DNA of 28,793 bases from a virus, in the IMG/VR virus record IMGVR_UViG_3300032093_011498, positions 1-28,793 of that record. One strand, 5' to 3'. Below are positions 3,549 through 23,605 of the stretch, piece by piece. The notes under the pieces were generated by a model. It did not search any database. It saw only the letters and a list, made by a program, of their open reading frames with translations, and was not told the DNA's origin. A program made the position numbers and the translations under genes. Numbering within the stretch: the stretch's first letter is position 1; each line of letters starts with the position of its first letter.

Positions 3549-3570
3549 AATTGCTCCTGTGTGTTGTGTG

Positions 3571-3590
3571 TATATCGGCGAACCGATATA
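3571..3590 (-). other. UUCG-tetraloop hairpin in 5' leader
   Basis: On the minus strand TATATCGG-TTCG-CCGATATA: 8-bp perfect stem with a UUCG loop, about 23 nt before the start of the 3276-3548 gene. It is the second such hairpin within 350 nt. No T-run follows. Probable mRNA stability or processing element. The rest of the 3549-3670 gap has no gene that can be supported. Confidence 0.65.
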
Positions 3591-3670
3591 TGTATTTAGT
3601 GTTTTTATTACTTAATGCGGTGGTTTTTTGGAACAAGTCCGGGTGATGCCACCAAACCCACAAGACTTAT

Positions 3671-3742
3671 TTAGCGATTAGCAATGTACATTGTGATTTC
3701 AAATCCAAAACGCATATCTTGTGCAGTAGGTTTAGTCCACAT
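3671..3742 (-). CDS. pqqA: PqqA-like coenzyme PQQ precursor peptide (23 aa)
   Basis: A 23-codon gene. The peptide starts MWTKP, continues [11 protein letters not shown] and ends IANR. This is the classic PqqA pattern (bacterial PqqA: MWTKP..., GFEVTMY..., ANR), with the Glu (residue 15) and Tyr (residue 19) that become fused into pyrroloquinoline quinone, spaced E-x3-Y as in the family. A strong GGAGAA ribosome-binding site lies about 6 nt before the ATG. Upstream on the transcript is a short hairpin and then the tmRNA terminator. None of the PQQ-building enzymes (PqqB-E) is in the window, so the peptide would have to be used by host enzymes. The start, stop, ribosome site and motif are all seen directly; function in the phage is inferred. 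Confidence 0.88.
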
Positions 3743-3760
3743 AATTTTCTCCTTAGTTAT

Positions 3761-3778
3761 AGACAGGTGTTTCTGTCT
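3761..3778 (-). other. Small hairpin in the pqqA leader
   Basis: AGACAG and CTGTCT pair around a 6-nt loop, about 20 nt before the pqqA ATG. Just upstream, TATAGATA (3783-3790) differs by one base from the T4 late promoter box TATAAATA. Either could set pqqA expression; neither is certain. Confidence 0.4.
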
Positions 3779-3835
3779 GTATTATCTATAGAAACAAGCA
3801 TAAAAAATTTCTACTGATATTCATTAAATAAATCT

Positions 3836-3876
3836 AAAAAAATATGCAAGGTGATTGGGTGATAAGGACACCTTGC
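3836..3876 (-). terminator. Intrinsic terminator at the end of the tmRNA
   Basis: On the minus strand GCAAGGTG (3876-3869) pairs with CACCTTGC (3853-3846), followed by ATA and seven T. This is a typical Rho-independent terminator placed just after the tmRNA coding piece and before pqqA. Part of the hairpin may also belong to the tmRNA fold. Confidence 0.75.
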
Positions 3877-4012
3877 GAAACCTCATCTAGCATGTTTAAG
3901 CTGCTAGAGCGTAACTTTCATCGTTTGCAGTTACTATTTTTGCTTGATTTACAGTCATCGCCTACTGTGTTGCCTTCTCCGCTATCTCACCCTGTCGAAA
4001 CCGGTCGAGCCC
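3846..4012 (-). ncRNA. ssrA: tmRNA, coding (5') piece of a two-piece permuted tmRNA
   Basis: Starts at 4012 with the acceptor strand GGGCTCG followed by ACCGGTTTCGACAGGG, the most conserved tmRNA 5' sequence. The proteolysis tag is read from 3928: Ala-Asn-Asp-Glu-Ser-Tyr-Ala-Leu-Ala-Ala then TAA at 3898-3896, preceded by the usual AAAAATAGTAACT region; an ACT codon before it may be the resume codon. CTAGCA and TGCTAG around the stop codon form helix P5. The acceptor strand pairs over 7 bp with the 3' strand CGGGTCC of the piece at 4123, including the G3-U pair that specifies alanine charging. The pieces are in reversed order in the gene, the sign of a permuted tmRNA processed into two RNAs. 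Confidence 0.92.
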
Positions 4013-4122
4013 ATCAGAAGAACTTTCTTCAATAAATTCGTGGAACCACCGCCAATATAGACTATGATTCCACAAATTTAAAGGAGGAAATCTATCGTTC
4101 CATTGATCCATAAAAATCCTTT

Positions 4123-4190
4123 TGGTGGACCCGGGGGGAATCGAACCCCCGTCCAAGATGCCTTCACCTTGAAGGGATTACAACAATTCT
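4123..4190 (-). ncRNA. ssrA: tmRNA, acceptor (3') piece of the permuted tmRNA
   Basis: Encodes the T arm GGGGG-TTCGATT-CCCCC, the acceptor strand CGGGTCC, discriminator A and CCA (4125-4123). It has no tRNA 5' half upstream, so it is not an ordinary tRNA. GGCATCTT before the T arm can pair with GAGATAGC of the coding piece (one bulged A) and CCCTTC with GAAGG, giving helix P2 between the two pieces. The intervening segment that must be cut out is 4013-4122 (110 nt) and holds no supported gene. The 5' limit of this piece (about 4190) is an estimate. Confidence 0.88.
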
Positions 4191-4227
4191 GTACATCATA
4201 TCATAATATATATGACTTGTCAAGCTT

Positions 4228-4563
4228 TTATCGGCCGTAAGGTCTTATTTGTTGACCAATACCAATTATACATAAGATGTTTTCTGTATGTTTCTCTACC
4301 AATGACCAGGTGCCTGTATTTGGATTAACAAACATGATCGTTGGATAAGAATTAACACTTTCACCATTTTCATCATTTGTTCTTCGATGTGAGATCATAT
4401 GCATCATTGGTTTTTCACCATATTCATCTAATGAAGAATATACTACTTCAGCCCTCACACAAACCATTTTGCTTTGTAACAAAGTGAAGTCTTGTTCCTC
4501 ACTTGTATCGTTACCAACTGCCAGAACTGGAAATAGTAGCAATGGTAGAAGAATCTTTTTCAT
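4228..4563 (-). CDS. Exported hypothetical protein
   Basis: 111 residues starting MKKILLPLLLFPVLAVGND, a clear signal peptide. The start at 4563 is chosen because the longer reading frame would lose the signal peptide; this start lies inside the end of the exonuclease gene (52-nt overlap). The mature part has paired features LLQSKMVCVRAEVVYSS and TMFVNPNTG-like blocks but no motif I recognise. Probably periplasmic. Similar short exported proteins exist in marine T4-like phages; function unknown. Confidence 0.65.
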   Translation of the reverse strand: MKKILLPLLLFPVLAVGNDTSEEQDFTLLQSKMVCVRAEVVYSSLDEYGEKPMMHMISHRRTNDENGESVNSYPTIMFVNPNTGTWSLVEKHTENILCIIGIGQQIRPYGR

Positions 4564-19776: not shown

Positions 19777-20295
19777 TTAATTGGCTAAAACGCTTGCGAC
19801 ACTTTTCATTACTGCGGCGATACGACCAATATCTCTGAGTTGTTCGACCGTATAACCTTCTTTCTTTAAAGTCTCATAATGAGCTTTTACACAGAAATGA
19901 CATTTACCAACAATACTTGCAGCTAAACTGTAAGCCTCAAATCTTGCTTTAGTTGTGCCACCGTGATTTGCGATAGCATTCATACGTAGTTGCGCTGGAA
20001 GTCCAGAAAGATTTGGATCATCAGCCATTTCAACATAGGGATACCAAACGTTATTTTGCGCCATAATTGCACCAGCAGTAAGTGCAGCATCAGCTTCTTT
20101 GCGATCCGATATTTGCAAATGAAGCCATGTCCAAAATTTCGAATTACCTGTTGCAAACGCTGCTGCAAGTGCTACTGCCTCTGCTTCTTCTACTGGTAAT
20201 GTGCTACGCTTAATTACTGCATCAATATTAAGTTTTGTATCCTTAGCATAATCAGGAATACTTACTTCTTTTAACGAATCTACCCACGTTGTCAT
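19777..20295 (-). CDS. ahpD: Alkylhydroperoxidase AhpD
   Basis: 172 residues, close in length to bacterial AhpD. Core motif: Glu120, Cys132-x2-Cys135-x3-His139 (GKCHFCVKAHYE), the AhpD proton-relay and disulfide site. AhpD reduces AhpC with electrons from a lipoyl protein, and has weak peroxidase activity itself. Its ATG overlaps the SGNH gene stop (ATGA), and ahpC is two genes upstream, so it is the third gene of one operon. N-terminal helices (WVDSLKEVSIPDYAKD) fit the AhpD fold. Confident call. Confidence 0.92.
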   Translation of the reverse strand: MTTWVDSLKEVSIPDYAKDTKLNIDAVIKRSTLPVEEAEAVALAAAFATGNSKFWTWLHLQISDRKEADAALTAGAIMAQNNVWYPYVEMADDPNLSGLPAQLRMNAIANHGGTTKARFEAYSLAASIVGKCHFCVKAHYETLKKEGYTVEQLRDIGRIAAVMKSVASVLAN

Positions 20296-20710: not shown

Positions 20711-21247
20711 TTAAAGTGTTTCGCCACCGATTGTGCGATTACAAGCACAAAGTTCTCCAGTTTGAAGAGCATCAAGAACACGAAGTGTTTCTTCAGGTGA
20801 ACGGCCTACATTGAGGTTGTTAACCGTAACGTGTTGTATAACATTATCAGGGTCGATAATAAAAGTAGCACGAAGAGCTGCGCCCGCTGGTTCATAGAAA
20901 ACTCCTAATTGTGTGATAAGTGATTTTTCCCAATCCCTACTTGTGTCAGCAAATTGAATATGTTTGATCTTTTTCAAATCTTCATGTGAAGCTTGCCAAC
21001 CAAGTTTACAGAATTCATTATCTGTTGAACCTGTCAATAGAACTGCATCACGATCCGCAAAGTCTTGGAACAATTTGTCATACGCAACAATTTCTGTTGG
21101 ACATACGAATGTGAAATCTTTTGGATAGTAAACAATTACTTTCCACTTACCATCAAAAGATTTTTCGGTAATATCAAAAAATTTATCACTACCAGGATTA
21201 ATACCAGTTACTACAAATGGTTCGATTACATCGCCTACTGTTTTCAT
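20711..21247 (-). CDS. ahpC: Peroxiredoxin AhpC (2-Cys)
   Basis: 178 residues. Peroxidatic Cys49 in DFTFVCPTE and C-terminal resolving cysteines in TGELCACN (Cys167, Cys169). The LQTxELCACN ending is the type found in mycobacterial-style AhpC, the kind that is reduced by AhpD rather than AhpF. It reduces H2O2 and organic peroxides in the cytoplasm. GGAGGAAATAA precedes the ATG. Upstream is a strong terminator-like hairpin (21259-21296) that could regulate it. Confidence 0.93.
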   Translation of the reverse strand: MKTVGDVIEPFVVTGINPGSDKFFDITEKSFDGKWKVIVYYPKDFTFVCPTEIVAYDKLFQDFADRDAVLLTGSTDNEFCKLGWQASHEDLKKIKHIQFADTSRDWEKSLITQLGVFYEPAGAALRATFIIDPDNVIQHVTVNNLNVGRSPEETLRVLDALQTGELCACNRTIGGETL

Positions 21248-22120: not shown

Positions 22121-23605
22121 ATGAATCATTGCATATTATTTTCTATAACATCTAACCTAAGAAGTCGTCCAAGCGGTGTTCACCGAATAGCACACCATCT
22201 TCGAACTCAAGGATGGAATGCCGAAGTTATCGACTTTTTCTATGGATGGACTCTTGAAGAACTAAAAGAACTTGTCCGATCAAGAGTAACCAAGAACACC
22301 CGTTTTTTTGGATTTTCATGGTTATTTTTCAGCAACGAAATAAAAAATACCATAAATCCTTTTTGTGAGTGGGTAAAAATTAATTACCCGGATATAATAT
22401 TCATCAGTGGTGGACAGACAGAACAAATTTCAAATGATATTATCCATTATCACATTGCTGGTTACGGAGAATATGCGTTAAACACATTACTATCTTATTT
22501 GTTCAGTAATGGTAAAAAACCTAGATTTTCTTTTCAAACACGAAGTAAAACAAAACTCATAAACGCTATACATAGTTATCCTGCTTTTCCCATGCAAGAT
22601 CCCATGATCAAATATGAATCTCGGGATTTTATTGTACCTGGAGAATGGGGTAGAATAGAATTTAGTAGAGGCTGCAAATTTAGCTGTAAATATTGTAATT
22701 TTCCTGTTTTAGGCGTAAAGGGTGATTACACCCGTACAGCAGAAAGCGCTAGAGAACAATTACTACATGCTTATGATAATTGGGGTATTGAAGATTATCT
22801 AGTTTCTGACGAAACATTTAATGATTATACCGAAAAAATTACAAAGTTTGCTAATGTTGTCGAAACACTTCCTTGGAAACCTTATTTTGCGGGGTTCATT
22901 AGAGGTGATTTATTGGTAAGCAGACCAGCAGACAGACATGAGTTACTTAGAATGGGTTTTTTTTCACACTATTATGGTATTGAAACTTTCAATCAAAAAT
23001 CCGCACAATTTGTTGGTAAAGGTATGAAAGTTGAAAAAATACAATCGGGTTTAATAGATGTAAAAAATTTTTTCAAATCCAATACACCAAAAAATTATTA
23101 TGCTGGATCAATGGCGTTTATTTCTGGACTTCCTTATGAAACACTGGAAAGTTTAGAAAGCACTCATCAGTGGATTCGTAGTAATTGGTTGGATCAAATA
23201 GTTATTGCAAGTCCTTTAGAAATAAACAAAAACTTTACTTTTAGATACTCAGACATTGATGAAAACTTCTCATCTTATGGTTATAGAGAAATGAAAATTA
23301 ATGATATTGAACTCGACATAACAAAAATTAATGACTTTTATGGTAATGGTGGCCACGTAATATGGGAAAATGACAATATGAACTTTATTCAGGCATTAGA
23401 TTGGGCAGAAAAAATTCGTTCCCTTAAAATTATAGCTGGACACGATTATCAACGATTAAGTATGGGTGATATATGTAATATACTTTGTGATGAGAATGGT
23501 GATCCTTTACCGAGGGATAAAAAATTATCCGTCACAAGAGGAAATTCACGCAATCATTGGAATCTTTTCTTAGAAAAGTATAAGAAAAAGAAACTTAGTA
23601 TTTAA
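22121..23605 (+). CDS. Radical SAM protein with B12-binding-like N-terminus
   Basis: 494 residues. N-terminal 1-150 has a Rossmann-like pattern (GVHRIAHHLRTQGWNAEVIDFF, then ISGGQTEQI), like cobalamin-binding domains of class B radical SAM enzymes but without a clear DxHxxG. The radical SAM core follows with Cys185-x3-Cys189-x2-Cys192 (GCKFSCKYCNFP) and a GLPYET motif near 325. The substrate is unknown. It is the only supported plus-strand gene in the window, driven by its own late promoter, and its stop overlaps that of the convergent sulfotransferase. It is unlike PqqE in domain layout. Confidence 0.88.
   Translation: MNHCILFSITSNLRSRPSGVHRIAHHLRTQGWNAEVIDFFYGWTLEELKELVRSRVTKNTRFFGFSWLFFSNEIKNTINPFCEWVKINYPDIIFISGGQTEQISNDIIHYHIAGYGEYALNTLLSYLFSNGKKPRFSFQTRSKTKLINAIHSYPAFPMQDPMIKYESRDFIVPGEWGRIEFSRGCKFSCKYCNFPVLGVKGDYTRTAESAREQLLHAYDNWGIEDYLVSDETFNDYTEKITKFANVVETLPWKPYFAGFIRGDLLVSRPADRHELLRMGFFSHYYGIETFNQKSAQFVGKGMKVEKIQSGLIDVKNFFKSNTPKNYYAGSMAFISGLPYETLESLESTHQWIRSNWLDQIVIASPLEINKNFTFRYSDIDENFSSYGYREMKINDIELDITKINDFYGNGGHVIWENDNMNFIQALDWAEKIRSLKIIAGHDYQRLSMGDICNILCDENGDPLPRDKKLSVTRGNSRNHWNLFLEKYKKKKLSI

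Follow-up and report, generated by a model that had tools for sequence, protein, structure and literature searches.

A gene that its sequence identifies as pqqA, encoding the precursor peptide of PQQ, lies on the minus strand of a 28.8-kb virus record (the window, by which we mean the whole stretch of DNA that was analysed), in the company of phage proteins that include exonucleases, an endolysin and a ClpP-like protease. In our judgement it is most likely an auxiliary metabolic gene, one that would raise the dose of PqqA offered to host PqqB-E during infection. With confidence only a little above even, we further propose that PqqA is near-universal, repeatedly acquired and systematically unannotated in Methylophilales phages, carried as a self-contained promoter-hairpin-gene-terminator cassette, because precursor dose limits PQQ in the host. 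A phage PqqA with the same interpretation was already known from one Lake Baikal population (PMC7678222); what is new is the recurrent, hidden pqqA across unrelated cultured and environmental methylotroph phages, together with the evidence for selection, the context of host copies and the stand-alone architecture.

The pqqA locus in the window

Read from the sequence, the gene runs on the minus strand from an ATG at 3742 to a TAA at 3673-3671 (23 codons), and no gene was found on the plus strand of 3671-3742 when the reading frames were checked. A sequence-only reading had placed a 23-codon PqqA gene at these coordinates without giving a strand; the coordinates stand, and the strand is minus. 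The profile search which that reading proposed supports its identification, with both PqqA models passed at about twice their cut-offs (PF08042 of Pfam, E 5.6e-10, 39.4 bits against a cut-off of 21.1; the NCBIfam equivalog model TIGR02107, 39.5 bits against 20). The short peptide of 23 residues has its own start and a W..P leader, and the E-x3-Y pair singled out by the earlier reading, the source of PQQ, is present in the translation as Glu15 and Tyr19. Since none of 300 shuffled versions of the window contained the motif M.{0,2}W..P.{5,6}R.G.E.T.Y, the gene is not a product of chance. No PHROGs family matched the peptide, so phage annotation pipelines based on PHROGs would miss it, and its profile found no match in the PDB. 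From these data we conclude that the window gene is a genuine PqqA.

The best relative, L077 (8.9 kb), is 84% identical in DNA to the window over the region and shares its upstream tmRNA, its downstream gene and an unchanged ribosome site, and in a second relative, L085, tmRNA and pqqA stand together beside the same neighbouring gene. pqqA is thus found at the same place in related phages, a comparison that the sequence-only reading had also suggested. The features of the window locus are:

3671-3742, minus strand: pqqA, 23-residue PQQ precursor peptide, stop included; crosslinked pair Glu15 and Tyr19 (from profiles and comparison with L077)
3749-3754, minus strand: Shine-Dalgarno sequence AAGGAG, 6 nt before the ATG (from sequence reading; same in L077)
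3761-3778, minus strand: 5' hairpin AGACAG-AAACAC-CTGTCT, directly ahead of the ribosome site
3781-3786, minus strand: possible -10 box GATAAT, 2 bases before the hairpin (from sequence reading)
3805-4237, minus strand: permuted two-piece tmRNA with tag ANDESYALAA (ARAGORN 3805-4215, Rfam 3825-4237)
4195-4223, minus strand: strong sigma-70-type promoter TTGACA-17-TATGAT with TG before the -10 (11/12 matches)
3619-3661, minus strand: conserved stretch after pqqA (GTGGGTTTGGTGGCATCACCCGGA...CCACC) with pairing potential, nearly unchanged in L077

The AAGGAG bears out the strong ribosome site claimed by the earlier reading. In the hairpin ahead of it, L077 has the stem TTGACAG/CTGTCAA, so that pairing is kept despite changed letters, a compensatory difference from the window. 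The candidate -10 box has no clear -35 box and was not among the matches of our promoter scan. The permuted tmRNA lies immediately upstream of pqqA on the same strand; the strong promoter upstream of the tmRNA possibly reads through into pqqA and may drive its transcription. No classic terminator was found after the window pqqA. The conserved stretch at 3619-3661 had no Rfam match and is a candidate hairpin or pseudoknot (GGGT/ACCC and GGTGG/CCACC), and L085 has a different hairpin in its place. Between pqqA and the next gene there is also a 13-pair hairpin with a short loop (3566-3595), kept in L077 with the same TTCG loop (minus strand).

The window contains 23 tRNA or tmRNA genes. A permuted two-piece tmRNA and pqqA occur on one contig in 4 phages and adjoin directly in 3 (tmRNA at 3805-4237, minus strand, in the window, 4042-4426 in L077, 2811-3143 in L085 and 13937-14332 in L041), and the tags vary among these relatives (ANDESYALAA, ANDESYRIAA, ANDEQFALAA and a longer one in L041).

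Across phages, 66 of 161 pqqA copies had a terminator in the 80 nt that follow the stop codon, vs 42 of 406 control ORFs on the same contigs, and a hairpin preceded the ribosome site of 70 of 161 copies vs 89 of 383 control ORFs. By these counts phage pqqA often looks like an independent transcription unit.

Among the window proteins scanned there was no PqqB-E, in keeping with the earlier statement that no PQQ enzymes are nearby; the window therefore has PqqA alone and not a pqq operon. PqqE likewise passed its cut-off in 0 of 24 phage records other than the window, and no methanol dehydrogenase was found among the scanned window proteins. The only radical SAM protein in the window is encoded by its only large plus-strand gene (22121-23605); as a protein of the B12-binding type that scores far below every PQQ or RiPP cut-off, it was rejected as a PqqE. 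Elsewhere on the minus strand, genes for AhpD-like and AhpC-like peroxidases lie near each other (19777-20295 and 20711-21247), the second with 67% identity to betaproteobacterial proteins.

Selection and distribution among phages

We then compared the gene across phages. Window and L077 differ at 8 bases of pqqA, and all 8 differences are silent third positions, leaving the peptide identical. When IMG/VR was scanned for DNA encoding the core GFE[x]TMY, a pattern that requires the reactive Glu and Tyr, there were at least 120 matches; among the matches listed, 120 of 120 were short genes, complete and with the start M(x)0-2W..P, and 113 of 120 had an AGGA- or GGAG-type ribosome site. Because this core pattern had demanded Glu and Tyr, a second scan was made with an N-terminal pattern, and of the at least 119 copies it returned, Glu15 and Tyr19 were kept in 119 of 119 among the matches listed. 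Among the listed matches, pN/pS was 0.08 over codons 12-23 (the tail) and 0.25 over codons 1-12 (the head), each half being measured on copies retrieved by the pattern from the opposite end; as the contigs are related to one another and not independent, these values are descriptive, with a clear direction. The substitution pattern indicates that pqqA is under strong purifying selection, the ratio falling below 1 as the sequence-only reading had anticipated. All 24 of 24 representative phage variants matched TIGR02107 and no other NCBIfam model, and in 15 of 15 phage records tested pqqA passed the TIGR02107 cut-off in exactly one copy.

A megablast of the window against phage records gave no match. 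When 50,697 phage records were searched by tblastn with three different PqqA queries, the same set was returned each time: Melnitz (four isolates), Venkman, P19250A, MEP301, MEP401 and MEP402, and, beyond these named methylophages, one Manatee Spring podovirus together with two records from a bacterial assembly that bears a wrong label. The latter two ('Acinetobacter phage MD-2021a', CAKLQF020000010.1 and CAKLQH020000055.1) were set aside as bacterial chromosome, since pqqA in CAKLQF020000010.1 precedes pqqB, C, D and a radical SAM gene, with ppk ahead of pqqA. Every cultured Methylophilales phage encountered among the 50,697 records thus carries pqqA; this count of isolates may be incomplete, as MEP431-434, named in the taxonomy, are absent from the collection, which leaves room for a Methylophilales phage without the gene. 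The named carriers all infect Methylophilales and belong to several unrelated groups (a Kyanoviridae myovirus, Zobellviridae, the P19250A-Venkman siphovirus group and MEP301), and separate groups of these pqqA-carrying phages have been described (PMC10580990). IMG/VR contigs grouped by shared genes formed three large sets, with Melnitz and MEP402 apart (among the matches listed).

The position of the gene differs among phages. Its neighbours are tmRNA or tRNA genes in the window, L077, L085, L004 and Melnitz; in Venkman and MEP301 it lies antisense next to genes for recombination, and in MEP402 it precedes a late operon, a variety that fits repeated acquisition. In the deposited annotation pqqA is missing from all cultured isolates checked: in Melnitz a hypothetical protein is annotated across it on the opposite strand, and in the other isolates its place is blank. 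The remark of the earlier reading that such tiny genes are usually missed holds for every one of them.

The host and its PQQ pathway

A family of candidate host genomes (n = 187) was reached via PqqA matches. As hps, the gene for the RuMP enzyme hexulose-phosphate synthase, was over cut-off in 59 of 60 genomes of the family, its members are RuMP methylotrophs, and we take the family to be Methylophilaceae. pqqA was present in 185 of 187 genomes, all but about 14 of them with 2-12 copies, and several of the host-family PqqA peptides were identical to common phage variants. Several genomes (G362, G490, G520, G590 and others) have 8-12 copies each, many of them far from pqqE. PqqE was over cut-off in 168 of 187; a host lacking the PQQ pathway, the weak point that the sequence-only reading had named for itself, is therefore not what the likely host family presents.

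For the phage of the window itself the evidence is mixed, and we infer a Methylophilaceae-like host. Its GC content (34.9%) matches that of loci in streamlined methylotroph-family genomes (34.6-34.9%), its tmRNA scored up to 64 bits in that family vs at most 49 bits in the alternative family, and its tag ANDESYALAA resembles the family's ANDETYALAA. The methylotroph-family tmRNAs found by ARAGORN are one-piece, mostly with ANDETYALAA, and that of the window is two-piece; the closest single PqqA to the window peptide (82%) comes from a different Burkholderiales family with small genomes, in which some members have pqqA; and assignment via the phage peroxiredoxin returned general Burkholderiales relatives. 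On either assignment, by these matches, the candidate host belongs to the Burkholderiales and has its own PqqA; the check for PqqE covered the methylotroph family only.

Proposed role and alternatives

The features by which an auxiliary metabolic gene is recognized are present here: a phage context, peptides identical to those of hosts, purifying selection and occurrence in cultured isolates. PqqA is consumed in PQQ synthesis, PqqD binding its leader and PqqE joining its Glu and Tyr (PMC10906245). In the role that we propose, the phage would supply the substrate peptide alone: host PqqD would bind the N-terminal leader of phage PqqA, host PqqE would join Glu15 to Tyr19, and host proteases with PqqB and PqqC would complete PQQ, which would charge a PQQ-dependent methanol dehydrogenase (XoxF/MxaF) and so sustain methanol oxidation and energy supply during infection. 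To the several pqqA copies of its host the phage would add one more, as a compact, well-translated unit. Expression during infection, processing by host enzymes, a rise in PQQ and a benefit to the phage are all inferred. The sequence-only reading had given methanol or glucose dehydrogenase as examples of the beneficiary; since pqqA-carrying phages infect methylotrophs, we keep the former and drop the latter. A 72-kb contig, L053 (IMGVR_UViG_3300025120_009955), carries both pqqA and a full-length PQQ-dependent methanol dehydrogenase (34049-35731, 608 bits).

Because one PqqA is consumed per PQQ, the dose of peptide can limit flux, and the multiple pqqA copies of hosts point the same way. For Methylovorus MP688, a strain with five copies of pqqA, the supply of PqqA is reported to set the rate of PQQ formation (Ge 2015, as cited in PMC11317620). 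In Acetobacter, pqqAB raised PQQ by 29% vs eightfold for pqqABCDE (PMC7936290), and where enzymes rather than PqqA are limiting in this way, extra PqqA would have little effect. In an older study one pqqA copy proved dispensable in Methylorubrum extorquens AM1, a result that does not extend to the orphan copies of that strain. As OM43 cultures receive PQQ in their medium, infections of the isolates may not depend on phage pqqA.

Some other role for the peptide, in metal or lanthanide handling, in signalling or as a substrate that a phage radical SAM enzyme turns into a different product, seems unlikely to us. The orphan pqqA copies of Methylorubrum respond to the form of lanthanide, and they have been suggested to take part in the uptake of lanthanides (PMC11317620); the window does, moreover, encode the B12-type radical SAM protein at 22121-23605. 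That gene, however, is 18 kb off and on the opposite strand, with a score remote from any PQQ or RiPP family, the representative phage copies all fall in the TIGR02107 equivalog family, and some phage peptides do not differ from host PqqA at all. Slightly less probable again is a decoy, by which phage PqqA would flood PqqD and PqqE, lower PQQ and halt methanol oxidation, so as to redirect metabolism or block competing phages. Such a decoy would be served by the conservation of the leader half that PqqD binds (PMC10906245) and by the absence of PqqE from the 24 phage records, yet it would have no need of the reactive pair, which is invariant among the listed copies found with a pattern that does not require it; constraint is stronger in the carboxyl half of the peptide, and L053 encodes a methanol dehydrogenase. 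That pqqA is a neutral passenger, captured by chance from hosts whose numerous and scattered copies make capture easy and then left unused, we regard as very improbable and largely refuted by the substitution pattern, with only silent differences in L077, pN/pS well below 1 among the matches listed, a conserved ribosome site and recurrence in several unrelated phage lineages with one type of host.

Additional PqqA for host PqqB-E remains our preferred role, and it has a precedent. In 2020, PqqA was reported in the Lake Baikal virus population VP_266, assigned to Methylophilaceae, and a role in providing PQQ for methanol dehydrogenase was proposed (PMC7678222). VP_266 resembles the window in its PqqA, its GC content of about 35% and the role proposed, and its host was assigned as a methylotroph. 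It differs in being a single metagenomic population that also carries methanol dehydrogenase and peptide deformylase genes, whereas in the window, unlike VP_266 as described, pqqA adjoins a permuted tmRNA and the scanned proteins include no methanol dehydrogenase. Melnitz, Venkman, P19250A, MEP301 and MEP401/402 are like the window in having one full-length pqqA per tested record and no PqqE, but their PqqA is 65-77% identical to the window peptide and has other genome positions and neighbours. The chromosomal orphan pqqA of the Methylophilaceae type belongs to the same family, in multiple scattered copies of which some encode common phage variants; unlike the phage gene, it is chromosomal and has a functioning pqq pathway elsewhere in its genome.

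The Methylophilales rank among the chief users of C1 compounds, methanol included, in lakes and coastal seas, and the hidden pqqA that their unrelated phages have in common suggests that PQQ supply is a widespread bottleneck, one that viruses would relieve. With psbA, cyanophages carry their own copy of a host component that is turned over, and so maintain energy metabolism during infection; unlike the psbA product, PqqA is a peptide substrate consumed for a cofactor and not a protein subunit. OM43 strain H5P1 with Melnitz or Venkman offers a small system in which a viral push on methanol oxidation could be tested, and pqqA could serve as a sequence marker for recognizing methylotroph phages in metagenomes. 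The minimum-length limits of gene callers cause real auxiliary genes to be missed, and in the open-licence literature the papers on cultured OM43 phages do not mention pqqA as a phage gene. The same literature holds one explicit report of a phage PqqA (PMC7678222), though others may exist, and a 2026 sediment paper lists viral pqqA, with no analysis, among phosphate genes (PMC13188868).
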